A stretch of 64,000 nucleotides of DNA from Acidaminococcus hominis. Lineage in GTDB: Bacteria; Bacillota; Negativicutes; Acidaminococcales; Acidaminococcaceae. The notes beneath the pieces were generated by a model. It had not been told where the DNA came from and ran no database searches. It saw only the letters and a program-made list of their open reading frames with translations. Both the position numbers and the translations under genes were made by a program. Of the stretch, positions 631 to 14,462 are shown in pieces. Location of the stretch: positions 428,118 to 492,117 of the forward strand of contig NZ_OLMM01000004.1 of NCBI RefSeq assembly GCF_900291475.1, written 5' to 3'. How positions within the stretch are numbered: position 1 is the first letter of the stretch; each line of letters opens with the position of its first letter.

Positions 631-2160
631 TTACAGCAGCTTTTTGCCCATCCCCTGCTCTGCCCAGGCAATGATTTTCCCTTCATGAATGGCCTGTCTC
701 AGATATTCGATGCAGGGATACAGGTACATATCCTCTTCCATGGGCGGCACCTGCTTGGCCACCTGGGCCAGCACTGCTGCGCTGGCGCTGCTGCGGGCTT
801 TGCCAGGCGCCGCAAAAGGCTGGGCCTGGTAGACGGACAGTAGTTCGATGGCCAGGATGTATTCCAGTTTTTCCGCCACGGACAGGGATTTCTTCCCGGC
901 GTTATACCCCATGGCCACGTAATCTTCCTGGTTGCCGCAGGTAGGGGTATTATCAATGACCGCTGGGGTGCACAGAATCCGCATCTCGTTGAGCAGCCCG
1001 GCCTGGGTATACTGGGGAATCATCAGCCCGGAATTAAGCCCCGGCTTCTTGATCATGAACCAGGAATAGCCGGACAGGCTGCCGTCAATCAGCCGGTTGT
1101 TCCTGCGCTCGGACATTTTGGCCAGCATGGTAGCGGCAATGCAGGAGGAATCCATGGCAATCCCCACGTAAGCAGAGTCGGCATTGCAGGCGGAAATCAC
1201 TTCTTCCTCCCCGGCTTCCGGCCAGATAATGGGATTGTCGCAGCGGGAATTCATTTCGATTTCCAGAGTCTTTTTGGCATCCAGCAGGGTCTTTTTGGCG
1301 GCCCCGTGGAGCTGGGGAATGCAGCGCAGGGACAGGGCATCCTGAACACGGGTTCCCTTGGCCGCTGCAATCACCTGGGAATCTGCCAATAGGTTCCGGA
1401 CGTTTTCTGCGGTCTTCCCCTGGTCTTCATGGGGCCGCACCGCCATAACCCGAGGATCAAAAGCGTTCATGACTCCCTGAAGGGCTTCCAAACTCAGAGC
1501 TCCCACCACATCGGCCGTTTTGGCGGCCTGGAGCATATCATAGAGACCGATAGCCCCCATGGCTGTTACCGCCGTGGTGCCGGACACCAGCGCCAGGCCT
1601 TCCTTGGACGCCAGCTGGATAGGGCTAAGGCCGGCTTTTTCCAGGGCTTCCGCCCCAGGGAGCAGCTCTCCCTGGTAATAGGCCTTGCCCCGGCCGGTAA
1701 TCACCAGAGCCATATGGGCTTCCGGGCTCAGATACCCCACACTGCCGTCCCCCGGTGCCCAAGGCACCAGGTTCCGGTTCAGAAACTGCCGGTACTGTTC
1801 CAGCACTTCCAACCGCACGCCGCTGTAGCCCTGGCCCAGGTTCTGGAGCACCATCAAAAGGGTTCCCCGGACCGTTTCTTCGCTCAGGGGCTTGCCCACA
1901 GAGGTGGAATGGGACAAAATGATGTTCTTTTGGAGCTGGGCCGTTTCGTCCTTGTCAATGGCCTTGGTGCACAGGGCCCCGAAGCCCGTGGTCACCCCGT
2001 ACATAACCTTTTCCTCTTCCACCCACTGCTCCACCAGGGCCCGGGACTTGTTGACCCGAGCCTTATAGGCTTCACTGAAAGTTACCTGCGCCTTGTCCCG
2101 GACCACTGCCAGGAAGTCCTCCAAATCAATTTTACCGCCCAATTCAATTGTCCGTGCCAT
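631..2160 (-). CDS. HAL-fold lyase lacking the MIO cofactor tripeptide; candidate ergothionase
   Basis: A 509-residue member of the histidine/phenylalanine ammonia-lyase family. The start is ATG at 2160 (MARTIELGG) behind GGAAGG/AGGAAAG. YGVTTGFG (about 54-61), a His in ILSHS, SLRC and NQED (Glu about 412) match the family. The Ala-Ser-Gly that forms MIO is missing: at about 139-148 it reads GSVGYLSPEA, where canonical enzymes have GSVGASGDLAPL. The usual Asn of ALxNGT is Ser, and the Tyr before SLRC is Leu. A lysine pair (about 371-372) sits just before GLNSG. Ergothionase of Treponema denticola is a HAL-fold enzyme without MIO that eliminates trimethylamine from ergothioneine. The upstream betaine-type (BCCT) transporter gene, 4 bp away, fits that substrate class. 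The family and the missing triad are seen; the substrate is inferred. It could act on hercynine or another trimethylated amino acid. No hydratase gene follows. Confidence 0.7.
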   Translation of the reverse strand: MARTIELGGKIDLEDFLAVVRDKAQVTFSEAYKARVNKSRALVEQWVEEEKVMYGVTTGFGALCTKAIDKDETAQLQKNIILSHSTSVGKPLSEETVRGTLLMVLQNLGQGYSGVRLEVLEQYRQFLNRNLVPWAPGDGSVGYLSPEAHMALVITGRGKAYYQGELLPGAEALEKAGLSPIQLASKEGLALVSGTTAVTAMGAIGLYDMLQAAKTADVVGALSLEALQGVMNAFDPRVMAVRPHEDQGKTAENVRNLLADSQVIAAAKGTRVQDALSLRCIPQLHGAAKKTLLDAKKTLEIEMNSRCDNPIIWPEAGEEEVISACNADSAYVGIAMDSSCIAATMLAKMSERRNNRLIDGSLSGYSWFMIKKPGLNSGLMIPQYTQAGLLNEMRILCTPAVIDNTPTCGNQEDYVAMGYNAGKKSLSVAEKLEYILAIELLSVYQAQPFAAPGKARSSASAAVLAQVAKQVPPMEEDMYLYPCIEYLRQAIHEGKIIAWAEQGMGKKLL

Positions 2161-2164
2161 ACGC

Positions 2165-3778
2165 TCACTTTCCTTCCTCAGCATTTTCCACCACGGTATT
2201 TTCTACCTGGCTTTCACTGTCCACAATGTCCTTTTTGGTTTCCTTGTCCATAAAGAAGACCTTCCCGGCGGCCAGCACCTGCAAAATAAAGATGGCCAGC
2301 ACCACAAAACCACCGCAGGCGGACAGGTACTTAACGCCGTCCACCCCCTGCTCACCGCCGCCAAAAGCTACCATGATGGCAGAAATAGCGCCGATGGATA
2401 CACCCCAGACCACCTTCTGCCACAGGGCCGGTTCTTCATCGTGCCGGGCACCCTTGGTGCACAGGGCCGCAATGGTGGTGGACATGGTGTCCGCCGTAGT
2501 GGAGAACGCCGCAATCAGCGTAATAATGATAATGGGGATCAGGATACTGCCCAGGGGCACCGCTTGAAGGAACGCCCAGATGCCGGATACGGCACCACCG
2601 GCCTTAATGGCAGCTACAATATCCACTCGGCCGTTGATCTGCCACTGGAGGGCCGTACCGCCCCAAACCGCAAACCAGATCATGCCAAAGACCGCCGGCA
2701 AAATCCAGTTGATGATCAGGAATTCCTTAATGGTCCGGCCATAGGCAATCATGGCGAAGAAAATTCCCATCAGCGGAGCATAGGCAATCCAAATGGCCCA
2801 GTCGTACATGGTCCACCAGGTAACCAGTTCCTTGCCGCCCACCGGATAGGGATCCAGACCCCAGGTCCAGAAATGATCCAGCCAGTAGCCCATGCCGATG
2901 TTGCCCATATTCATAATGTACACCGTAGGGCCAATGATGATTAACAGGAACAGCAGGGCGTAGAAAATCTTGGTGGTCAGATTGGCCAGCCATTTGATGC
3001 CCCGGTCAATGCCCAGCACGGAAGCAATGGTAAAGGTGGCCGTGATAATGGCCGTCAGCACAAACCAGACCAGAGGTCCCTGTTTGATGCCGTAGGCTGC
3101 CGTAAGGCCGGTTCCGATCAGGGCAAGTCCCGCCCCCAGGGAAGCTGCCAGTCCCAGGGCAATGGCCAGTACGGATAGTACGTCCACCAGGGAACGCCAA
3201 AACCCTTTGTTGACCTTTTCCCCAAACAACGGGGTCAGGGAAGCTGCTACGGACAATTCCTTATTCCGGTTATAGTATAAATAGGCCATGATTACGCCGG
3301 TCAAGGCATAGATGGCATAGGGAATAAAAGTCCAGTTATAAAATACCCGGCCCATGGAGAAAAAGGCCGCTTCCGGTGTAAAGGGTTTGATGCCCGAAGC
3401 ATTCAGCTCCCCGTAAATATTGCCGTAATAAATGATGGGTTCATTGACCCCGTAGGTAATCAGGCCCGTAGCAATGCCCCCGGTCAGGGTCATGGCAAAC
3501 CAGGCGCCAAAGGAGAATTTGGCTTTGGCATTGGGTCCCCCAAAGCGAATCTTCCCCAAAGGAGAAAAGGTTAACAGGGCAATCATAATCAGGGTGCCAA
3601 TGGCCACCCATTGATACAGCCAGCCAAAGGTTTCCAGGGACCAGCCGAAAATGGCCTGGGTAACCTTGGTCAGCCATTCATTGTGGAGGACCCCCAACAG
3701 GGCAGAACCCCCAATGACTACAAAACAGGGGATGAACACATCCCAGCGTACGCCTTTCTTGACTTCTTTTTCTTCCAC
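2165..3778 (-). CDS. BCCT-family betaine/carnitine/choline-type transporter
   Basis: A 537-residue protein with about 12 membrane helices and the BCCT layout. The helix-3 segment GGIATGLITYGVNEP resembles BetP's glycine-rich stretch. The helix-8 segment YDWAIWIAYAPLMG corresponds to the Trp-rich quaternary-amine box, with one Trp changed to Ile and one to Tyr. GRTIKEF follows, as in the family. The start is GTG at 3778 behind GGAGGGAG. BCCT carriers move quaternary ammonium compounds by Na+ or H+ symport or by exchange. The lyase gene begins 4 bp after the stop, so the pair is almost certainly co-transcribed and the carrier probably supplies its substrate. Substrate identity is inferred. Confidence 0.85.
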   Translation of the reverse strand: MEEKEVKKGVRWDVFIPCFVVIGGSALLGVLHNEWLTKVTQAIFGWSLETFGWLYQWVAIGTLIMIALLTFSPLGKIRFGGPNAKAKFSFGAWFAMTLTGGIATGLITYGVNEPIIYYGNIYGELNASGIKPFTPEAAFFSMGRVFYNWTFIPYAIYALTGVIMAYLYYNRNKELSVAASLTPLFGEKVNKGFWRSLVDVLSVLAIALGLAASLGAGLALIGTGLTAAYGIKQGPLVWFVLTAIITATFTIASVLGIDRGIKWLANLTTKIFYALLFLLIIIGPTVYIMNMGNIGMGYWLDHFWTWGLDPYPVGGKELVTWWTMYDWAIWIAYAPLMGIFFAMIAYGRTIKEFLIINWILPAVFGMIWFAVWGGTALQWQINGRVDIVAAIKAGGAVSGIWAFLQAVPLGSILIPIIIITLIAAFSTTADTMSTTIAALCTKGARHDEEPALWQKVVWGVSIGAISAIMVAFGGGEQGVDGVKYLSACGGFVVLAIFILQVLAAGKVFFMDKETKKDIVDSESQVENTVVENAEEGK

Positions 3779-4175: not shown

Positions 4176-4796
4176 TTACAGCTGTACTTTGTTCAGCAGG
4201 GCTTGTTCCCGTGCATCCACATCTTTTTCAATGGCAGCCATCTTTTGGCGCAGGTCTTCCGCAAAGGCCTGGTCCTTGATGCTTCCCAAATTGATTTTTA
4301 CATTCAGGAAGGCGCCCCGGACAGCAGCCCGGGCGTTCATGGCAGCTACCGCGCCGTCGGTGATGGCGTTGGCGTTGCCTTTTTCAATCACAATAGCAGC
4401 CAGGTCAAGCAGGCCATAGGCCGTTTCCCCCACCGTAAAGGGTACCAGGGCAGCGCCCTTGGTAGCTTCCTGGATGGCGGCAGAACGGGCTTTTTTGGCT
4501 TCGTCCGTATCCTTGGGTAGCTTGAAAGCGGCCATGATTTTGTTGAAGGCATTGCTGTCTTCGTCAATCAGTTCCAAGAAACGGGCTTTCAGGGCATGGG
4601 CCTTTTCAGCCACGTCCTTCATATCCTCCTGTACTGCTGCGTATTTTTCCTTGCCGATAGTCAGCTGAGCCACCATTTCGATCAGGGCTGCAGAGGAAGA
4701 GGCGTTCAGGGCAGCAATGGAGCCGCCGCCGGGCGCCGGAGAAGAAGATCCGGTTTCATCGATAAATGCTTCTACAGACAGTTTCCGCAATTCCAT
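4176..4796 (-). CDS. fchA: Cyclodeaminase/methenyl-THF cyclohydrolase family protein
   Basis: A 206-residue, mainly helical protein matching the C-terminal domain of mammalian FTCD and bacterial FchA. It shows the SSSPAPGGGSIAALNAS glycine motif near residue 20 and the NANAITDGAVAAMNARAA segment near 150. The family closes 5-formimino-THF to 5,10-methenyl-THF with release of ammonia; some members are the main methenyl-THF cyclohydrolase. The start has a GGAGG site. It is the last gene of ftcD-fhs-fchA. Because the FolD at 11739-12593 lacks the usual cyclohydrolase residues, FchA may perform both cyclodeaminase and cyclohydrolase steps here. That division of labour is inference. Confidence 0.88.
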   Translation of the reverse strand: MELRKLSVEAFIDETGSSSPAPGGGSIAALNASSSAALIEMVAQLTIGKEKYAAVQEDMKDVAEKAHALKARFLELIDEDSNAFNKIMAAFKLPKDTDEAKKARSAAIQEATKGAALVPFTVGETAYGLLDLAAIVIEKGNANAITDGAVAAMNARAAVRGAFLNVKINLGSIKDQAFAEDLRQKMAAIEKDVDAREQALLNKVQL

Positions 4797-4814: not shown

Positions 4815-6485
4815 TCAGAACAGACCGTAAATCTTGCCGTCGTTGTCGATATCCATCTTCAGGGCAGCCGGTTGTTTGGGCAGACCGGGCATAACCATGA
4901 TGTTGCTGGTCTGGCAGACAATGAAGCCTGCGCCGTTGGATACCCGTACATCCTGTACGGTAATCTTGAAGTTCTTGGGTGCACCCAGGAGAGCCGGGTT
5001 GTCGCTCAGGGAGTACTGGGTCTTGGCTACGCACACCGGCAGTTTATCCAGGCCCCAATCCTGCAATTGTTTGATCTGTTTCTTGGCATTGGGCGTAAAT
5101 TCCACCCCATCGCCGCCGTAGATTTTCGTTACGATGGCATTCAGTTTGTTGGGGATGGTATCGTTGACATCGTACAGTTCCACTTTCTTGGGAGCTTGGC
5201 CTTCCAGGATTTCCACCAGCTTGTTGGCCATATCGATGCCGCCTTCGCCGCCCTTTTCCCAGCATTCGTTCAGGCTGACTTCTACACCGTAGCTGTTGCA
5301 TTTCTGCAGCAGCATATCGATTTCTGCCGGGGTATCGCTGGAGAACTTGTTGATGGCTACCAGTACGGGCAGGCCAAAGGTTCTCATATTTTCCACCTGT
5401 TTTGCCAGGTTGGTGAAGCCGTCGCTGACAGCCTGGACATTTTCCTTGCTCAGGTCTGCTTTGGCTACGCCGCCATGCATCTTCAGGGCACGGATGGTGG
5501 CAACCACTACCACGGCATCCGGATACAGATTGCCATAGTGGCATTTGATATCCATGAATTTTTCAGCACCCAGGTCAGCACCGAAGCCTGCTTCCGTAAT
5601 GGCGATATCGCCCAGCTTCAGGGCCATCTTGGTGGCCAAGAGGGAGTTGCAGCCATGGGCAATGTTGGCAAAAGGTCCGCCATGGATAATGGCAGGGGTG
5701 TGTTCCAGGGTTTGCACCAGGTTGGGTTTAATGGCATCCTTCATCAGCATGGCCATAGCCCCTTCGCAGCCCAGCTGATGTACATGCACCGGGTTGCCGT
5801 CCAGGTCGCAGCCGATAACAATGCGGCCGAACCGGGCTTTCAGGTCTTCCAGGTCCTTGGCCAGGCACAGGATGGCCATGATTTCAGAAGCCACGGTAAT
5901 GGTGAAAGCGTCCTGACGGGGGAAGCCGCAGACTTTGCCGCCCAGGCCCACTACCACGTTGCGCAGGGCACGATCGTTCATGTCCATAACCCGGCGCCAG
6001 GTGATTTGGCGGGCATCCAAACGCAGGGCGTTGCCGTGATGGATATGGTTATCGATCATGGCAGACAGCAGGTTGTTGGCTGCGGTAATGGCATGCATAT
6101 CACCGGTAAAATGCAGGTTGATGTCATCCATAGGTACAACCTGGGCATAACCGCCGCCGGCTGCACCGCCCTTAATACCGAAGACAGGTCCCAGGGACGG
6201 TTCCCGCAGAGCTACTACGGCCTTCTTGCCCACTTTGTTCAGAGCCTGGGCCAGGCCAATGCTGGTAGTGGATTTGCCTTCGCCAGCTGGGGTGGGAGTA
6301 ATGGCCGTAACCAGGACCAATTTCCCATTGGGTTTGTCTTGCAGGCGTTTCAGCACATCCAGGGAGATTTTGGCTTTGTAGTGGCCATATTGTTCCAGCT
6401 CTTCCGGCAGGATTCCCAAGCCGTCAGCAATCTTGCTGATGGGTTCCATCACATTTTTTTGGGCTATTTCGATATCGCTTAACAT
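4815..6485 (-). CDS. fhs: Formate--tetrahydrofolate ligase
   Basis: A 556-residue, full-length Fhs. The P-loop-like [13 protein letters not shown] lies near residue 66, followed by [21 protein letters not shown] and the characteristic [15 protein letters not shown] segment. It interconverts formate, ATP and THF with 10-formyl-THF. In amino-acid fermenters it can run backwards to make ATP from formyl groups. It lies between ftcD and fchA with 18-30 bp gaps, so in this operon it likely releases the histidine-derived carbon as formate. RBS GGAGGTG before ATG at 6485. Confidence 0.97.
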
Positions 6486-6515: not shown

Positions 6516-7421
6516 TTACTCTTCCAATTCAAGCAGACGTTTTTCCAAGATTTCATCCATATCGAAGTTTTCGATCTGGAGATAGTATTCAGCAGCCATC
6601 AGCAGGGCTTTCATGGGCACCGTACCGATTACTTCGCTGCCGGCAATGGAAACGCCGTAGCGGCGGGCTTCCATTTTGATCATTTCAAAAGCTTGGTAAA
6701 CAGCGGTCTTTTCGTAGTTTACCAGGTTCATGGAAACCTGTACCTGGTTCCGTTCTTCCAGCTTTACGCCCATGGCCTTTACAAAGCGCAGGCCGCCGCC
6801 GATGTGACGGACTTTCCGGGCAATGGCGTTGGCCACTTCAATGTCGCTGCAGTGCAGGTTTACGTTGAAGGCAACCAGGGGAACCCGGGCGCCAATGGCA
6901 GAGCAGCCAGATTTTTCGTTCATGACAGCCGGACCGTAATCCGGTTTCCAGGCAGGATCCTTAATCTTTTCGAAGAAGCCTTCGTACTGGCCTTTCCGTA
7001 CAGCAGCCAGGTTCCGGCGTTCTTCCTTGGTGCAGGCATCTTCGTACAGGTAAACAGGAATGCCCATTTCCCCGTAGGCTTTGCCTACCGTATTGGCAAT
7101 GGCAACGCATTCGTCCATGGTTACGCCCATAACCGGGGTAAAGGGAACTACGTCCACTGCGCCAAAACGGGGATGTGCCCCATGATGGGTTCTCATATCA
7201 ATCAGTTCAATGGCGGTTTTGGCCATGTTGATGGCGGCTTCCGTCACTGCTTCGGGAGTGCCGATAATGGTGACCACGGAACGGTTGTGGTCTTCATCGC
7301 TGGAGTAATCCAAAATTTTCAAGCCTTTGATCTTGCGGGCTTCGTCAACAATCTTTTCTACCTTTTCCTTATCGCGACCTTCACTGAAATTTGGTACAAA
7401 CTCAACTAACTTTTTAGCCAT
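6516..7421 (-). CDS. ftcD: Glutamate formimidoyltransferase
   Basis: A 301-residue protein equal to the N-terminal formiminotransferase domain of FTCD. It begins KKLVEFVPNFSEGRD and has HHGAHPRFGAVDVVPF near residue 80. It transfers the formimino group of N-formimino-L-glutamate to THF, releasing glutamate in histidine breakdown. ATG at 7421 is chosen because GGAGGTG lies just upstream; the ORF extends 9 codons further without support. Monofunctional ftcD with a separate fchA is the usual split in anaerobes. hutU and hutI, which would make its substrate, are not in the window. Confidence 0.95.
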   Translation of the reverse strand: MAKKLVEFVPNFSEGRDKEKVEKIVDEARKIKGLKILDYSSDEDHNRSVVTIIGTPEAVTEAAINMAKTAIELIDMRTHHGAHPRFGAVDVVPFTPVMGVTMDECVAIANTVGKAYGEMGIPVYLYEDACTKEERRNLAAVRKGQYEGFFEKIKDPAWKPDYGPAVMNEKSGCSAIGARVPLVAFNVNLHCSDIEVANAIARKVRHIGGGLRFVKAMGVKLEERNQVQVSMNLVNYEKTAVYQAFEMIKMEARRYGVSIAGSEVIGTVPMKALLMAAEYYLQIENFDMDEILEKRLLELEE

Positions 7422-8268: not shown

Positions 8269-9597
8269 TCAGAACTTCAGATGGCAGTACATTTTATCAA
8301 ATTCCTCCCGGATGCAGGGAGCTACCCATTCACTGGAGAACATAGGATGGGAAATGGCCAGTGCATGCACTCTTTCCTTGATTTCTTCCAGCACGGCAGG
8401 GTTGTCCTTGTTTTTCAGGGCCCGGCCCAGCAGATGGCCGATTTCCTTCATTTCCGCTTCCTTGGCGCCCCGGGTGGTCATGGTCGGAGAACCAATCCGC
8501 AGGCCGCTGCCCAGGCTGGGCGGCAGGGTATCGTAGGGGATCATGTTCTTGTTGGTAACCATGCCCAGGCTGCACAGCAGGGTTTCGGCTTCCTGGCCGT
8601 TGGCAATCACCGGCGTTACGTCCAGCATCACCATATGGGTATCGGTACCGCCGGTAATCAGGCGCATACCTTCTTCTTCACAGCCCTGGGCCAAAGCCTT
8701 GGCGTTCAGGCAGACCTGTTTGGCGTAGGTCTTGAATTCCGGCTGGAGCAATTCCAAGAACAGTACGCCTCTGGCCGCCAGCATATCCCCTTTGGGACCG
8801 CCCTGGAGCCGAGGGAAGACGCCCCGGTCAATTTTGGAAGCGATGGCTTGTTTGCACAGGATGACCCCGCAGCCCCGAGGACCCCGCAGAGTCTTTTGGG
8901 TGGACATGGTCACCACATCGGCATAGGGAACCGGGCTGGGAATGGCGCCGCCGGCAATCAGGCCGCAGTCATGGGCGCAGTCCACCCAGAAGTAGGCTCC
9001 CACTTCATCGCAGATTTCCCGGAAAGCTTTGTAGTCAATGGTCCGGGGATAGGAAGAAGCCCCAGTAACAATCAGTTTGGGCTGGTACTTATGGGCCATT
9101 TCCCGTACCTGATCCATATCAATCCGTTCCGTTTCCTTGTTGACCCCATAGTGGATAGCGTTGAATTCTCGGCCGCTGAAATGGAATTTGGCACCGTGGC
9201 TCAAATGGCCCCCGTTGTCCAGTTCCAACCCCAGGAAGGTGTCGCCTCTTTGCAGCAAGCCGTAAAGCACGGCCATATTGGCAATGGTGGCGTTGCCGGA
9301 CTGGATATTGGCGTGTTCTGCTCCAAAAACCTTCTTTACCCGCTCTACGGCCAGCTGTTCAGCCTTGTCCGCCAGTTCACAGCCCCCTACAAAGCGTTTG
9401 CCGGGGTACCCTTCCGTGTTCTTGTTGGTGAAGACGGAGCCCTCCAGCGCCGTACACAGGGGAGAAGCCACGTTTTCCGAGGCAATCAGACCGATGGTCT
9501 CAAACTGTCTTTTTTCTTCCTTGTGAAGCAGACCGGCCATTTCCGGGTCAAACACGTCCAGCAATTTGATGGCATCTTGTTTCGTAGGCATTTCCAT
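8269..9597 (-). CDS. Serine hydroxymethyltransferase-like PLP enzyme with an altered active site
   Basis: A 442-residue fold-type I PLP protein of the GlyA family. The start is ATG at 9597 behind AAAGGAG. Conserved parts are IASEN (about 38), EGYPGKR, NGGHLSHG, the PLP lysine in STQKTLRGPRG (Lys about 235), FPRLQGGP and GLRIGSPTMTTRG with the carboxylate-binding Arg. Several SHMT catalytic residues differ: the Tyr of TNKYAEG is Asn (about 60), the Tyr pair of KRYYGG is Phe-Val (69-70), PHSGSQAN reads SGNATIAN so the PLP-stacking His is lost, and the His before the PLP lysine is Gln. It follows a DUF3870 gene. It may be a true but divergent GlyA or an aldolase or hydroxymethyltransferase for another amino acid. 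The family is certain, the activity is not. Confidence 0.8.
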   Translation of the reverse strand: MEMPTKQDAIKLLDVFDPEMAGLLHKEEKRQFETIGLIASENVASPLCTALEGSVFTNKNTEGYPGKRFVGGCELADKAEQLAVERVKKVFGAEHANIQSGNATIANMAVLYGLLQRGDTFLGLELDNGGHLSHGAKFHFSGREFNAIHYGVNKETERIDMDQVREMAHKYQPKLIVTGASSYPRTIDYKAFREICDEVGAYFWVDCAHDCGLIAGGAIPSPVPYADVVTMSTQKTLRGPRGCGVILCKQAIASKIDRGVFPRLQGGPKGDMLAARGVLFLELLQPEFKTYAKQVCLNAKALAQGCEEEGMRLITGGTDTHMVMLDVTPVIANGQEAETLLCSLGMVTNKNMIPYDTLPPSLGSGLRIGSPTMTTRGAKEAEMKEIGHLLGRALKNKDNPAVLEEIKERVHALAISHPMFSSEWVAPCIREEFDKMYCHLKF

Positions 9598-9641
9598 TTT
9601 GTTTTCTCCTTTCAAGAGCAGCACAGGAACCGCAGATAGAC

Positions 9642-9681
9642 AAAAAGAAGGACGCACCAGCTGCAAACCGGTTTGTCCTTC
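9642..9681 (-). terminator. Hairpin with U-tract between the DUF3870 and SHMT-like genes
   Basis: GAAGGAC and GTCCTTC pair around a loop that itself contains AAACCGGTTT, followed on the minus strand by TTTTTG. It could partially terminate after the DUF3870 gene or attenuate the SHMT-like gene, whose start is 45 bp further on. Confidence 0.6.
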
Positions 9682-9734
9682 TCTAAATTGGTTGTCAGGG
9701 GCTGCCGGACAACCTTTAAAAAAGACCTATGGAG

Positions 9735-10082
9735 TTATTTCACGTACTTGGCATTGGGATACACCATCAGGTAGTGGTTCTGGGCATCCTTCAGGGCCGC
9801 AATCACAGCCTTTTGGGACAGGGCCAGGAACCGCTTCCGCAGGATTTCTGTCAGCGCATCAATGTCCGTCAGCAGGTTATGCCCCACCAGGATTTCCCGC
9901 AGGAACACATTGGTGGCTTCCATGATCATGTTGGCACTGGCATCGATGATGGTGTTGGTATGGACGTCCAGCACCAAACTCAGGGAAAAGATCCCGTACA
10001 TGGCGTTGATGGCGTCTTCCTTGGAAACCTTGGCTACACCCGTTACAAACACCGCATCCTCCGGATACTTTTTGGCAGTCAT
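9735..10082 (-). CDS. DUF3870-family protein, function unknown
   Basis: A 115-residue protein with the family pattern FVTGVAKVSKEDAINAMYGIFSLSLVLD, a DA(S/D) segment, FLREILVG and a conserved C-terminal helix ending in a Tyr-rich tail. No catalytic motif, signal peptide or membrane segment is visible. It is first in a two-gene unit with the SHMT-like gene and is preceded by a promoter and an attenuator-like leader. The context suggests a role beside that PLP enzyme, perhaps small-molecule binding; no function is established for the family. Confidence 0.7.
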   Translation of the reverse strand: MTAKKYPEDAVFVTGVAKVSKEDAINAMYGIFSLSLVLDVHTNTIIDASANMIMEATNVFLREILVGHNLLTDIDALTEILRKRFLALSQKAVIAALKDAQNHYLMVYPNAKYVK

Positions 10083-10118: not shown

Positions 10119-10162
10119 GCAAAAAGCCGACCAAAAGAAGAGTCCTTCATTCTATGGTCAGC
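10119..10162 (-). terminator. Attenuator-like terminator in the DUF3870 leader
   Basis: GCTGACCA pairs with TGGTCGGC (one G-U) and is followed by a T-run on the minus strand. It lies between the promoter at 10219-10247 and the DUF3870 start, with no gene upstream. It must therefore act in the leader rather than close an operon. Confidence 0.65.
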
Positions 10163-10176
10163 CTAAAATACGTTGA

Positions 10177-10197
10177 TTTCAGGAGGTCATCCTGAAA
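10177..10197 (-). ncRNA. Leader hairpin upstream of the attenuator
   Basis: TTTCAGGA and TCCTGAAA form an 8-bp perfect stem with a 5-nt loop, just inside the predicted transcript from the 10219-10247 promoter. Together with 10119-10162 it gives a two-hairpin leader. I could not match it to a known riboswitch class. Confidence 0.5.
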
Positions 10198-10218
10198 CCC
10201 ATATGTTCGACTGGAATC

Positions 10219-10247
10219 AGCATACCATACCTGAAGAAAGATGTCAA
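10219..10247 (-). promoter_or_regulatory. Sigma-70 promoter for the DUF3870/SHMT-like unit
   Basis: TTGACA (10242-10247 on the minus strand), a 17-bp spacer and TATGCT (10219-10224) give a near-consensus promoter. Transcription would start near 10211, leaving a leader of about 130 nt. Confidence 0.8.
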
Positions 10248-10346: not shown

Positions 10347-10424
10347 GGGCAGGCAAGATTCCTGCCCAAACAGAACATATTCCTTATGTTCGCGGAAACA
10401 GCTGCCCTGTTTCCATCCGGCGAT
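10347..10424 (+). ncRNA. Structured gltS leader: three tandem hairpins, possible riboswitch
   Basis: Three perfect stems stand in a row: GGGCAGG/CCTGCCC (10347-10367), GAACATA/TATGTTC (10373-10391) and GGAAACAG/CTGTTTCC (10394-10414). A terminator follows immediately. This is the architecture of a cis-regulatory leader. I could not assign it to a known class by eye. Confidence 0.55.
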
Positions 10425-10473
10425 AAGGTCTGAATGCAGTACACAGTGGTGTGCTGGTTCAGGCCTTTTTTTA
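10425..10473 (+). terminator. Strong terminator in the gltS leader (attenuator)
   Basis: AAGGTCTGAA pairs with TTCAGGCCTT outside CAGTACAC/GTGTGCTG and is followed by seven Ts, ending about 23 bp before the gltS start. No plus-strand gene lies upstream, so it should regulate gltS by premature termination. Confidence 0.8.
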
Positions 10474-10495
10474 TTCCAAGAAAGAAGGGGAACGT

Positions 10496-11695
10496 ATGAA
10501 ACTGGCATTCAACCTGTACCAATCCATGTGCCTGGCAGTCGTGGTCTTTTACCTGGGCGCCTTTCTGAAAAAGCGCGTGAAGCTTTTCCAAACCTACTGC
10601 ATTCCCAGCCCGGTGATCGGCGGCATTATTTTCGCTGTGGTCAACCTGCTGCTGTACGAAGGACACATCCTGGATCTGACCCTGGACACCACCCTGCAAA
10701 GCGTCTTTATGAACATCTTCTTTACCAGCGTGGGCTTTACCGCCGGGTTTGGCATGCTGAAAAAAGGCGGCAAGACCCTGATCATCTTTATGGTCTGTGT
10801 GGCTCTCCTGATTACCATCCAAAATGCTACAGGCGCCCTGCTCTGCTCCCTGTTCGGTCTGAACCCGCTCCTGGGACTTTCCCTGGGTTCCCTGCCCCTC
10901 ACCGGCGGCCACGGCACCTCTGCCGCCTTTGGTCCCCTGCTGGAACAAATGGGGGTGGATAATGCCCTGACTGTCGCCATTGCTGCAGCCACCTACGGTC
11001 TGGTAGCCGGCAACGTCATCGGCAACCCCCTGGCCCGGAAACGGATTTTGCAGCTGCACCTGAAGAGCACCGACGCCCAGAATGTAGATACGGACGCTGT
11101 CGCTGAGCTGCGCCGGAACACGGAAATTACCCAAAAACTGGATCCGGAACGGGGCACCTGGGGCCTGTCCTTGATTTTTGTAGCCATGGGCTTGGGCACC
11201 TTGGTCAGTATGGCCCTGGATGCCGTCCACATTACCATGGCAACCTACGTAGGCGCCATGATCATCGGCATCATTATCCGCAATGGCTGTGATGCCAAGG
11301 GCCTTGAAGTACCCATCCAGGAAATCAGCACCATTGGCATCATCGGTCTGAACTTCTTCCTGGCGCTGGCCATGATGGGCATGAAGCTGTACCAGCTGGC
11401 GGGCCTGGCTACGCCCATGATTGTCATTCTTCTGGTGCAGACCCTGTTTACTGGTCTGTTCGTCTATTTCATTACCTTCAATCTCTGCGGCCGGGATTAC
11501 GATGCGGCCGTGCTGGCGGCGGGCCACTGCGGTTTCGGCATGGGTGCCACCCCCAACGCCATGGCCAACATGGACTCCCTGACCCAGGTGTATGGGCCTT
11601 CGGAAAAAGCCTACCTGATTATCCCCGTCTGCGGCGGGTTCTTTACGGATATTGTCAACTCGCTTCTGATTACAGCCTTCATGAACCTGCTGTAA
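10496..11695 (+). CDS. gltS: Sodium/glutamate symporter
   Basis: A 399-residue polytopic membrane protein of the GltS (ESS) family. Ten or more hydrophobic segments are visible, with the repeated GG(H)GTSAAFGP segment near residue 140 and GHCGFGMGATPNAMANM near 343. The start is ATG at 10496 behind AGAAGGGGAA. GltS imports glutamate with Na+, an obvious need for a glutamate fermenter. It begins right after a strong leader terminator and is followed 43 bp later by folD, so both are probably under one attenuated promoter. Confidence 0.93.
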   Translation: MKLAFNLYQSMCLAVVVFYLGAFLKKRVKLFQTYCIPSPVIGGIIFAVVNLLLYEGHILDLTLDTTLQSVFMNIFFTSVGFTAGFGMLKKGGKTLIIFMVCVALLITIQNATGALLCSLFGLNPLLGLSLGSLPLTGGHGTSAAFGPLLEQMGVDNALTVAIAAATYGLVAGNVIGNPLARKRILQLHLKSTDAQNVDTDAVAELRRNTEITQKLDPERGTWGLSLIFVAMGLGTLVSMALDAVHITMATYVGAMIIGIIIRNGCDAKGLEVPIQEISTIGIIGLNFFLALAMMGMKLYQLAGLATPMIVILLVQTLFTGLFVYFITFNLCGRDYDAAVLAAGHCGFGMGATPNAMANMDSLTQVYGPSEKAYLIIPVCGGFFTDIVNSLLITAFMNLL

Positions 11696-11738: not shown

Positions 11739-12593
11739 ATGGCACAAATCTTGTCTGGAAAAGAAGTGGCTGCCCAGCTGACAGCCCATTTAACGGAAGA
11801 AGTGGAGAAACTGAAACAGCAGGGTATCGTGCCCAAACTGGCCCTGGTCCGGATTGGGGAACACCTGAGCGACGTGCGCTACGAAAAAAGCGCCAAGAAC
11901 CGCTGCGCCAAGATTGGTATTGCCACGGAAAGCTACGTGCTCCCGCCGGAGGCTTCCCAGGACCAGCTGGTGGCCGTCATCCGCCAGATCAACAACGACG
12001 CCTCTATCCACGGCTGCCTGATTTTCCGGCCTTTCCCGCCCAGCTTTGACGATGCCTATGTACGGTCCTGCCTGGATCCCAGAAAAGACGTGGACGGCAT
12101 TACGGATACGTCCCTGTCCGGTTTGTTCACCGGCTCCTTTACAGGCTTCACCCCCTGCACGGCAGCTGCCTGCATGCATATCCTGGATACCTACCGCATC
12201 CCCGTTACCGGCAAGGATGTGGTGGTCATCGGTGCCAGCCTGGTGATTGGCCGGCCCGTAGCCATGGAATTTCTCAAACGGGAAGCCACCGTGTCCATTT
12301 GCCACATCAAGACCAAGGACGTGAAACACTACTGCCAGCAGGCCGATATTATCGTGGCAGCTGCCGGCCATGCCGGTCTGGTAACCCGGGATATGGTCAA
12401 ACCCGGCCAGGTCATCATCGACGTGGGCATTAACGCCACGCCCCAGGGCACCCTGTGCGGAGATGTGGACTTTGCCGCCGTCAGCCCTGTGGTGGCAGCC
12501 ATTACCCCGGTACCAGGAGGCGTAGGCTCGGTAACCACCTCCGTACTGGCCAGCCACGTAATCCGGGCAGCCCAGCTCCAAACCCAAAAATAA
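11739..12593 (+). CDS. folD: FolD-family methylene-THF dehydrogenase with altered cyclohydrolase residues
   Basis: A 284-residue protein with the FolD fold. It has KDVDG (about 116-120), the NADP-site GASLVIGRP (about 165) and PVPGGVGSVT near the C-terminus. The usual signature YVxxKxK reads YEKSAK at 48-53: Ala occupies the position of the catalytic Lys (Lys54 in E. coli), and Lys is one residue later. The VQLPLP motif reads IFRPFP, so the conserved Gln is Phe. Those two residues are needed for cyclohydrolase activity in characterised FolD. A mainly or only dehydrogenase function is therefore likely, with FchA (4176-4796) hydrolysing methenyl-THF. RBS AAAGGAG. Co-transcribed with gltS. Confidence 0.85.
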   Translation: MAQILSGKEVAAQLTAHLTEEVEKLKQQGIVPKLALVRIGEHLSDVRYEKSAKNRCAKIGIATESYVLPPEASQDQLVAVIRQINNDASIHGCLIFRPFPPSFDDAYVRSCLDPRKDVDGITDTSLSGLFTGSFTGFTPCTAAACMHILDTYRIPVTGKDVVVIGASLVIGRPVAMEFLKREATVSICHIKTKDVKHYCQQADIIVAAAGHAGLVTRDMVKPGQVIIDVGINATPQGTLCGDVDFAAVSPVVAAITPVPGGVGSVTTSVLASHVIRAAQLQTQK

Positions 12594-12745: not shown

Positions 12746-14401
12746 ATGAATCCAATGACCAATTCCAACAGCATTTCTTTTCCTGCGTATCCCTTCAGCC
12801 ACAGCGGAGACAGTACTCCAGCCTGGACCCAAGGCACGGGAATTTTCGACTATGTAAAAGAAAATATTGACGCAGAAGGCTTTTTCACCAAGGAGATTCT
12901 GCCGGACAAACCCGCTGCAACCGGCGAGTTGGACTTCCAGCCGATGCTGGGTTCCTTCGATCCCTATCTGATGTCCGACCTTTCTGCAGACTCAACCCAG
13001 CAGCGGGAAATCCGTGCAGAAAACTTTTCCCGCCAGATACACACGGTACTCCAGGCATTTCTGGAAGACCCTACCCCAGTGCACGCAGCCGACTTTTACA
13101 TGAAAGCGGCCACCCTGCCCTGCATTCTCTATTACGATACCGTTATAGAAACCCTGAGCCAGGAGCCCATTCCCGCCTGTCTGAAGGATTTGACCCAGGA
13201 ATGGCTGTACAAGGCCGTCAACCGGGAAGCCGTCAAACTGGCCATTGTCATTACCGGGCTCTGCCTGCTAAATGAGGATAACCTGACCCTCTGCTGGCAG
13301 CTAAAAAAGGATCTTTTGCTCTTGGCCCGCTGTGAAGAATTTACCTGTTTCGTGGTCTACGCCCTAAAGCTCAGCCACCAACTGGAAAATTCCGACCTGT
13401 GGGACCTGATGACCCATACCAGAGGCTGGGGCCGGCTGGGAGCCATTGAGGCCTGCGAGTTCAACCTAATCAAGGAACGGAAATGGCTGCTCCACAATGC
13501 CTTTTTGCAAACCATCGATTATCCGGCCATGGCCCTGATGGTCTTCAACAAGCTGAATATCATGGACCTATTGGATCATGAGCATTTGCAAGAGGACACC
13601 TTCCAAGACCTGACCACCCTGATTCTCCACTACTTAATCTATTTGACCGAGGAACCTGAGGGACCCAAAGCCAACATCGACCTGTGGGAGCTGCTGGAAG
13701 CATACCTCCATCATGCAGAAGAACACCACACGGACCTTGTCACCGCCTCCGGCCTGACCAACCTGCGGGAATATCTGAAGCAATGGACGGAAAACCAGTA
13801 CTGGGATTATCTCACCAGCAACCAGCTCCACCTGCTGATTGGCAAAATCGAGACCCTGCTCCTGTCCACCGATTGGCTGCCCCAAATCAAAGCCCACCTG
13901 CTGGACAAAGACGGCAATGCCAATTTGGACACCATCCATATGGGCTTTGCCCTGGGGCTGGACCTGCACAAGGAGCTCTGGGCCATCCTGAAAAAAGATC
14001 CTCTGCAAACGGAATTGTATGGCTTTCTCCTGGACCCCAAACACAAAAGAATGGCCGGCATGGCAGCCAAATTTGCTTCTGCCCATGCTGACCTATATTT
14101 GGAACAGGAAGAGCCCTGCCTGCCCCTGCTGGATACCCTGCAATATTTCCCAGGGACCTGCGGCGACCTGGTGGAAAAAGCGTTGGTTTCCATCTACGAT
14201 TCCTGCCGTTCCCTGGCCCTGCAGGTCCTGGAGGCCTGGCCGGAAAGTACCTGGCCAAAGGATGCCCAATTGGCACTGCAAAAGGCCCGGACCATGACCA
14301 CCAGCCCCCTGCAAAAGCTGCAGATTGATGTGCTGCTGAAAAAACGGACTATGGAATATCAAGATTTTCTGGATGTCATCAGGGAATCCAAAAATAAGTA
14401 G
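12746..14401 (+). CDS. Large alpha-helical protein of unknown function
   Basis: 551 residues, starting at ATG 12746 after AGGAGG. I see no signal peptide or membrane span. The first 75 or so residues are low in structure (FPAYPFSHSGDS...). The rest is a run of amphipathic helices rich in Leu, Trp and acidic residues, resembling a helical-repeat scaffold. A few motifs recur (DLWDLM, DLWELLEAY, KELWAILKK). Similar proteins in anaerobes are sometimes labelled limonene hydroxylase, a name the sequence does not support. It has its own promoter and a strong terminator. No function assigned. Confidence 0.75.
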   Translation: MNPMTNSNSISFPAYPFSHSGDSTPAWTQGTGIFDYVKENIDAEGFFTKEILPDKPAATGELDFQPMLGSFDPYLMSDLSADSTQQREIRAENFSRQIHTVLQAFLEDPTPVHAADFYMKAATLPCILYYDTVIETLSQEPIPACLKDLTQEWLYKAVNREAVKLAIVITGLCLLNEDNLTLCWQLKKDLLLLARCEEFTCFVVYALKLSHQLENSDLWDLMTHTRGWGRLGAIEACEFNLIKERKWLLHNAFLQTIDYPAMALMVFNKLNIMDLLDHEHLQEDTFQDLTTLILHYLIYLTEEPEGPKANIDLWELLEAYLHHAEEHHTDLVTASGLTNLREYLKQWTENQYWDYLTSNQLHLLIGKIETLLLSTDWLPQIKAHLLDKDGNANLDTIHMGFALGLDLHKELWAILKKDPLQTELYGFLLDPKHKRMAGMAAKFASAHADLYLEQEEPCLPLLDTLQYFPGTCGDLVEKALVSIYDSCRSLALQVLEAWPESTWPKDAQLALQKARTMTTSPLQKLQIDVLLKKRTMEYQDFLDVIRESKNK

Positions 14402-14404
14402 CTA

Positions 14405-14445
14405 TAAAAAAAGCCTGGGAGAGCTAAGCTCCCAGGCTTTTTTGT
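14405..14445. terminator. Bidirectional terminator
   Basis: AAGCCTGGGAG and CTCCCAGGCTT flank a short loop, with A-runs on the left and T-runs on the right. It closes the plus-strand helical-protein gene and the minus-strand alcohol dehydrogenase. Confidence 0.9.
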
Positions 14446-14462
14446 GCGTTTTGCAGCCCCTC

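Follow-up and report, generated by a model that had tools for sequence, protein, structure and literature searches.

The enzymes closest to the one described here are the canonical serine hydroxymethyltransferases (SHMTs; GlyA, PF00464) and the alpha-methylserine/2-hydroxymethylserine hydroxymethyltransferases (mSHMTs; EC 2.1.2.7), as in TRIS-degradation cluster II. The two groups reportedly part at Y55 and Y65, positions described as setting donor specificity, and the substitution Y55T allows SHMT to use D-Ser (PMC6411801, PMC4761611, PMC6546723). As a set of mSHMTs for comparison we used the TRIS-degradation cluster enzyme of CP065422.1 (L189), the record that PMC10848231 names, together with Ensifer, Klebsiella and Rhodobacteraceae relatives that have similar clusters (L191, L195 and L196). 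All four sequences carry T55, F64, H65 and T228, and the mSHMT clusters combine FolD, PurU and D-serine dehydratase with a transporter. On the regulatory side, the nearest parallels are antitermination systems of the PyrR, BglG/LicT and ANTAR types, whose RNA-binding proteins compete with terminators and in which, as at the locus described here, the 3′ part of a hairpin overlaps the 5′ arm of an intrinsic terminator upstream of catabolic genes.

The locus lies in a stretch of 64,000 nucleotides (the window) on contig C4 of a 2.6-Mb Acidaminococcus genome, congeneric with A. fermentans. It encodes a variant SHMT paralogue, SHMTv, whose membership of the SHMT family, proposed in a first-pass annotation of this DNA, is borne out by a profile score far above the cut-off and by the PLP lysine K229 in a TxK motif (Table 1). 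The best start is the ATG at 9597, rather than the TTG at 9666 in the list of open reading frames. The DUF3870 gene lies upstream of SHMTv on the same strand, and genes for GltS, one of seven paralogues in this genome, and for a second FolD (the other copy is at C7:284111) diverge from the pair. Beyond SHMTv is a series of histidine/formimino-glutamate C1 genes encoding HutD, FtcD, Fhs, FchA, BCCT and HutH. Elsewhere in the window, a match to His_leader at 14292-14446 scored 32.8 bits against a gathering score of 49 and is probably due to chance.

Table 1 Features of the SHMTv locus, in window coordinates
Feature	Position	Strand	Basis
HutH	631-2184		Pfam
FchA	4176-4796		Pfam
Fhs, formate-THF ligase	4815..6485	(-)	own sequence and position in window and related loci
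FtcD	6519-7421		Pfam
SHMTv, variant SHMT paralogue, 442 aa	8269..9597	(-)	PF00464 416 bits (cut-off 27), alignments, tree
Intrinsic terminator 2, overlaps P1 of element 2	9641..9683	(-)	folds
Attenuator element 2 (CAGCC loop), SHMTv leader	9676..9725	(-)	covariance model
DUF3870 (PF12986) protein, 115 aa	9735..10082	(-)	PF12986 105.5 bits (cut-off 22)
Intrinsic terminator 1; 5′ arm takes up 3′ strand of P1	10119..10164	(-)	folds, descriptor
Attenuator element 1 (P1, 2-nt bulge, 10-bp P2, UGACC loop), DUF3870 leader	10161..10210	(-)	covariance model, 58.5 bits
Sigma70-like promoter TTGACA-17-TATGCT, TG before -10	10219..10247	(-)	10/12 consensus matches; consensus match only
Related attenuator element (P2 8 bp, CUGCC loop), GltS-FolD leader	10382..10428	(+)	spotted by eye
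Terminator overlapping GltS leader element	10425..10475	(+)	fold
GltS-family sodium/glutamate symporter	10496..11695	(+)	TIGR00210 358 bits (cut-off 310.75)
Second FolD paralogue	11739..12593	(+)	PF02882/PF00763

Alignment assigned to SHMTv the substitutions Y55N, A56T, Y64F, Y65V and H228Q and the replacement of PHSGSQ by SGNATI. The changes at Y55, Y64, Y65, PHSGSQ and H228 are identical across all five members of its clade, except that the protein of an Oscillospiraceae MAG has Cys for the initial Ser of SGNATI. The canonical donor-site signature Y55/Y65/H228 is replaced by N55, V65 and Q228 in every one of the five sequences, while position 64 remains aromatic; among 55 canonical SHMTs, Y55 and Y65 are near-invariant. 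The first-pass annotation had read these changes correctly as Asn for the Tyr of NKYAEG, Phe-Val for the tyrosines of KRYYGG and Gln for the His before the PLP lysine, and had rightly seen that this lysine survives, together with the Arg that binds the substrate carboxylate (R363 in the literature). It went astray in taking the change in PHSGSQ, which is real, for loss of the PLP-stacking His: that residue is H126 of GGHLTHG, retained in SHMTv as GGHLSHG. K229, T230, D200, H203, S175, E57 and R235 are likewise kept, as are the positions checked at which the E. coli enzyme touches folate (L121, G124, G125, L127, N347 and E57). The E. coli GlyA row of the alignment has one extra residue at 361, a gap in the other rows, and E. 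coli numbering after 360 is one too high both in this alignment and in the analysis of near-invariant positions below. The earlier argument from lost catalytic residues is partly wrong, since the catalytic and folate residues checked are retained. SHMTv should accordingly be active and folate-dependent, not crippled, although its donor pocket is altered, and this donor site has probably been remodelled away from serine.

SHMTv has the PLP lysine, H126, D200, H203, E57 and the carboxylate Arg in common with canonical GlyA, being about 47% identical to the copy in its own genome, and differs from canonical GlyA in the three replaced donor-site residues and in having its own attenuator-controlled operon. 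With mSHMT it shares the SHMT fold, alterations at 55, 64, 65 and 228, and the folate residues. However, SHMTv has N55, F64, V65 and Q228, that is, N/V/Q where mSHMT has T/H/T, and these diagnostic residues, which depart from the Thr55/His65 signature, rule out filing it as mSHMT. At 82 near-invariant positions SHMTv alters 11 and mSHMT alters 7, with 55, 56, 65 and 228 in common (hypergeometric p = 0.005, in a test that assumes independence). In a maximum-likelihood tree, SHMTv and a paralogue 57% identical to it from C. transplantifaecale formed one clade (support 100/100) apart from mSHMT, which was placed with alphaproteobacterial GlyA (100/99). A single origin of SHMTv and mSHMT was not rejected by the AU test (p = 0.131). 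Judged on these sequences, convergence is likely, though not proven, and is a better reading than one origin. That gut anaerobes possess SHMTs with a donor site rebuilt along mSHMT lines hints at an amino-acid substrate that has so far been overlooked.

The clade is small. Its five loci fall in four genera, with proteins from C. transplantifaecale, Faecalispora jeddahensis, A. fermentans and the Oscillospiraceae MAG that are 86%, 85%, 84% and 76% identical to SHMTv, respectively, and all other SHMTs found were at most 57% identical. Searches with the protein and the RFx motif returned one carrier among 398 Bacillota genomes, and searches for SHMTv one among 348 genomes of the C. transplantifaecale family and one among 345 of the Faecalispora order, in each case a genome already known to carry it. 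The clade is rare, and its high identity across families indicates horizontal transfer between them. SHMTv is present in one of eight congeneric genomes, that of A. fermentans, and four (G002, G005, G006 and G007) gave no SHMT match at E 1e-40; the genus Acidaminococcus can apparently do without SHMT.

Two PF00464 copies are present in the window's genome, SHMTv and a canonical GlyA at C7:708257-709489, the second glyA for which the first-pass annotation had recommended a search. This bears on whether SHMTv has remained a serine hydroxymethyltransferase that is under separate control, to balance C1 units and glycine, next to the histidine/formate C1 genes. The retained catalytic and folate residues and the adjacent FtcD, FchA and Fhs genes are compatible with such a role, and C. 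transplantifaecale, which has SHMTv and the 57% paralogue but lacks canonical GlyA, might still make glycine with one or the other. Nevertheless, the remaining four of the five SHMTv genomes also carry canonical GlyA, several congeners manage with no SHMT at all, and SHMTv has altered two tyrosines that canonical SHMTs hardly vary; we consider a serine enzyme unlikely. The presence of canonical glyA, the rarity and mobility of the clade and the changes at donor-specificity residues, which are those that differ in mSHMT, instead argue for the specialised, non-housekeeping reaction that the earlier annotation had favored. A third variant SHMT lineage (T55, F64, Q65 and T228; motif NKT[TL]EG..RFQAG) was seen in two genomes from the window's family, a Negativicutes MAG and a Desulfobacteraceae MAG (L104 2794-4047, L105 5599-6879, L086 6476-7698 and L081), and its neighbors in L086 include an M20 peptidase-like gene and others that look catabolic.

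Genes around SHMTv recur across the clade. GltS and a FolD paralogue adjoin it in three loci, in differing gene order; in Faecalispora, the fourth, Fhs follows it directly, and Fhs is nearby in the window. The C. transplantifaecale cluster additionally holds MurI and GDH, whereas murI is outside the SHMTv cluster within the window, and the murI of this genome lies elsewhere with the same attenuator. Similar to the mSHMT clusters, SHMTv loci therefore bring together FolD, an enzyme for disposal of C1-folate and an amino-acid transporter; by contrast, they are without D-serine dehydratase and PurU and have GltS, MurI and GDH nearby instead, MurI being a potential consumer of a D-amino acid. Behind the 57% paralogue come genes for a GltP-like symporter and a further FolD, which makes a second cassette with the logic of the SHMTv cluster. 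This cassette (L103 8333-13604) adjoins a cupin-PocR-histidine kinase and an AraC-type response regulator. Near the SHMTv cluster of the same species, an Rfam glycine riboswitch lies upstream of a sodium:alanine symporter (L061 18907-19013, minus strand).

The neighbors GltS, second FolD and Fhs, joined in one relative by MurI and GDH, suggest that an alpha-hydroxymethyl amino acid is broken down. We propose that SHMTv is an active hydroxymethyltransferase, dependent on PLP and THF, with a donor pocket opened up to admit an alpha-substituted (quaternary) amino acid. Running most probably in the catabolic direction, it would convert an alpha-hydroxymethyl amino acid and THF to a D-amino acid and 5,10-methylene-THF, the dedicated FolD and then Fhs would oxidise the C1 unit, giving formate with ATP, and import of the substrate would fall to the adjacent GltS. 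That the substrate is quaternary and releases a D-amino acid is, in our estimation, an even call. A glutamate-like substrate would fit the neighbors best, yielding D-glutamate to be racemised by MurI. Because GltS has so many paralogues in the window's genome, such a substrate is only a lead. We hold an acidic substrate to be rather unlikely. To our knowledge alpha-hydroxymethylglutamate is not a common metabolite, and a text search of the literature for it returned a single match, in another natural-product context.

The same neighborhood could serve a THF-independent aldolase or transaldolase that cleaves a beta-hydroxy amino acid, for example GltS-imported beta-hydroxyaspartate or 3-hydroxyglutamate, to glycine and an aldehyde. 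SHMTs do cleave beta-hydroxy amino acids, transporters for acidic amino acids are adjacent, and SHMTv has gained basic residues, R259 and K265, in a loop that contributes to the neighboring active site. R259 is missing from the 57% paralogue, however, and both this paralogue and SHMTv are accompanied by a dedicated FolD, for which an aldolase would have no need, any more than for the folate contacts that SHMTv has kept. We regard an aldolase as very unlikely.

The leaders of the DUF3870-SHMTv operon contain tandem copies of an RNA element of about 50 nt, one before each gene. The hairpin of the DUF3870 leader is conserved in four loci, with compensatory change at 7 of 16 pairs, and a covariance model of these four leaders, built without element 2, found that element in the SHMTv leader with 28.4 bits (E = 3.4e-4). 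All five SHMTv leaders carry it. The nine copies have an 11-bp P1, a two-base 3′ bulge, a 10-bp P2 and an NNNCC loop, which in one copy is a six-base loop. Their alignment has compensatory change at 15 of 21 pairs, and 91% of cells are paired, as against 71% in shuffled and 44-56% in slid controls; in a wider set, which was fitted to the model, compensatory change rises to 19 of 21 pairs. In the cases examined the 3′ strand of P1 is also the 5′ arm of an intrinsic terminator, so that the two structures are mutually exclusive; the exception is the Faecalispora DUF3870 leader, in which folding showed no clear terminator. The related element before GltS, missed by the strict descriptor described below, folds with z = -3.4 alone and -5.8 with its terminator.

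This attenuator RNA is almost certainly real. An Rfam scan of the leaders placed no family near its gathering score, and the combination of hairpin and terminator is previously undescribed and without an Rfam family. Compared with the PyrR, BglG/LicT and ANTAR systems, its hairpin sequence and loop differ, and no such regulator gene was seen in the operon. The earlier annotation had inferred an attenuated promoter of the operon's own; a sigma70-like promoter followed by terminators is indeed there, but that description understates two covarying attenuators, one per gene. Co-transcription of SHMTv with DUF3870, also claimed, would need read-through of the terminator inside the 137-nt gap between them.

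Of 299 genomes sampled from the phylum, 41 encode DUF3870. It is directly 5′ of SHMTv in all five variant loci, the conserved pairing that had been proposed as a check, and the first-pass annotation had treated this pairing as a clue to the reaction. Across the family, DUF3870 adjoins CoA transferases, oxidoreductases, racemases and transporters, with 93 Pfam families among 92 neighbor proteins. Because its neighbors are so varied, the pairing alone says nothing about the chemistry of the SHMT and diagnosis of the SHMTv reaction from them is ruled out; DUF3870 looks more like a regulatory partner. An AlphaFold model (pLDDT 84.8) has an IscU-like beta-beta-beta-helix topology and aligns with IscU/SufU (Z 8.3, 96 residues aligned, rmsd 3.9), but at 14% identity, without Cys cluster ligands in this DUF3870 and with a score common among unrelated small folds. 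A role as an Fe-S scaffold is accordingly unsupported. DUF3870 has also been linked to pore-forming-toxin-like Bacteroides domains (PMC4387736); we set this link aside, those domains being C-terminal parts of lipobox proteins, unlike the 115-residue protein here. In the searches made, homology of DUF3870 to a known RNA-binding family was not found.

The distribution of the RNA element offers a first concrete functional lead for DUF3870. We searched with a descriptor drawn from the SHMTv copies (P1, bulge, P2, NNNCC and overlapping terminator), for which SHMTv loci count as matches by construction. It matched at 15 of 69 distinct DUF3870 genes, compared to 0-2 for other loop endings and 0-1 for dinucleotide shuffles; at the other 54 the strict descriptor detected no element. 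Eight of the 15 positive loci have neither SHMT nor MurI, and four of these eight are CoA-transferase operons of one family (f39). With that family shared and the five SHMTv loci of common ancestry, independent associations number fewer than 15. Leaders at or just after DUF3870 contained the element in 11 of 73 cases and other leaders in 2 of 197 (Fisher p = 1.5e-5; element-DUF3870 p-values are indicative, the loci overlapping and being partly related). Both of these other leaders, of MurI and FolD, belong to divergent neighbors of DUF3870. Over 2.2 Mb scanned, 18 of 23 distinct matches were within 241 bp of a DUF3870 gene. The 1.69 Mb scanned of the window's genome (~65%) held four descriptor matches scoring at least 20, against 0-3 for other loop endings: two in the SHMTv operon, a third in the leader of murI on C7 and a fourth resembling a plain terminator.

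Because the element is enriched at DUF3870 genes, DUF3870 is a candidate RNA attenuation protein that would bind the hairpin, a proposal we hold tentatively and place just short of an even chance; the varied catabolic neighbors fit a local regulator. Expression of DUF3870, SHMTv, GltS-FolD and murI would then be governed by transcription attenuation, with the NNNCC P1/P2 hairpin competing against the overlapping terminator and DUF3870, the likeliest binder, setting the switch in response to a substrate. The main rival is that the elements are riboswitches to which a small molecule, glutamate or a folate for instance, binds directly, with DUF3870 only a metabolic neighbor. A covarying, aptamer-like hairpin that competes with a terminator would suit a riboswitch, as would copies before murI and GltS, where the target gene is not DUF3870. 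Yet the few conserved unpaired bases (the NNNCC loop and the 2-nt bulge) are more reminiscent of a protein-binding hairpin, and the strong association with DUF3870 extends across unrelated operons, making direct ligand sensing by the RNA rather unlikely. We therefore prefer DUF3870 as the binder. The overall picture, SHMTv acting on an alpha-substituted amino acid under NNNCC-hairpin attenuation with DUF3870 bound, seems to us as apt to be right as wrong, and together the lineage and the attenuator make two unknowns testable. A broader and improbable extension is that DUF3870 proteins form a new family of attenuation regulators that bind RNA and respond to metabolites, each governing an adjacent catabolic operon through this hairpin and here coordinating SHMTv, GltS-FolD and glutamate racemase for an unrecognised alpha-hydroxymethyl, glutamate-like amino acid.

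In congeners, the glutamate racemase gene is divergent from DUF3870 at five loci (L184, L185, L186, L026 and L008). The strict descriptor missed the MurI leaders of L185 and L186 and detected the attenuator in those of L184 and L026, and the covariance model detected it in that of L008 with 20.6 bits.
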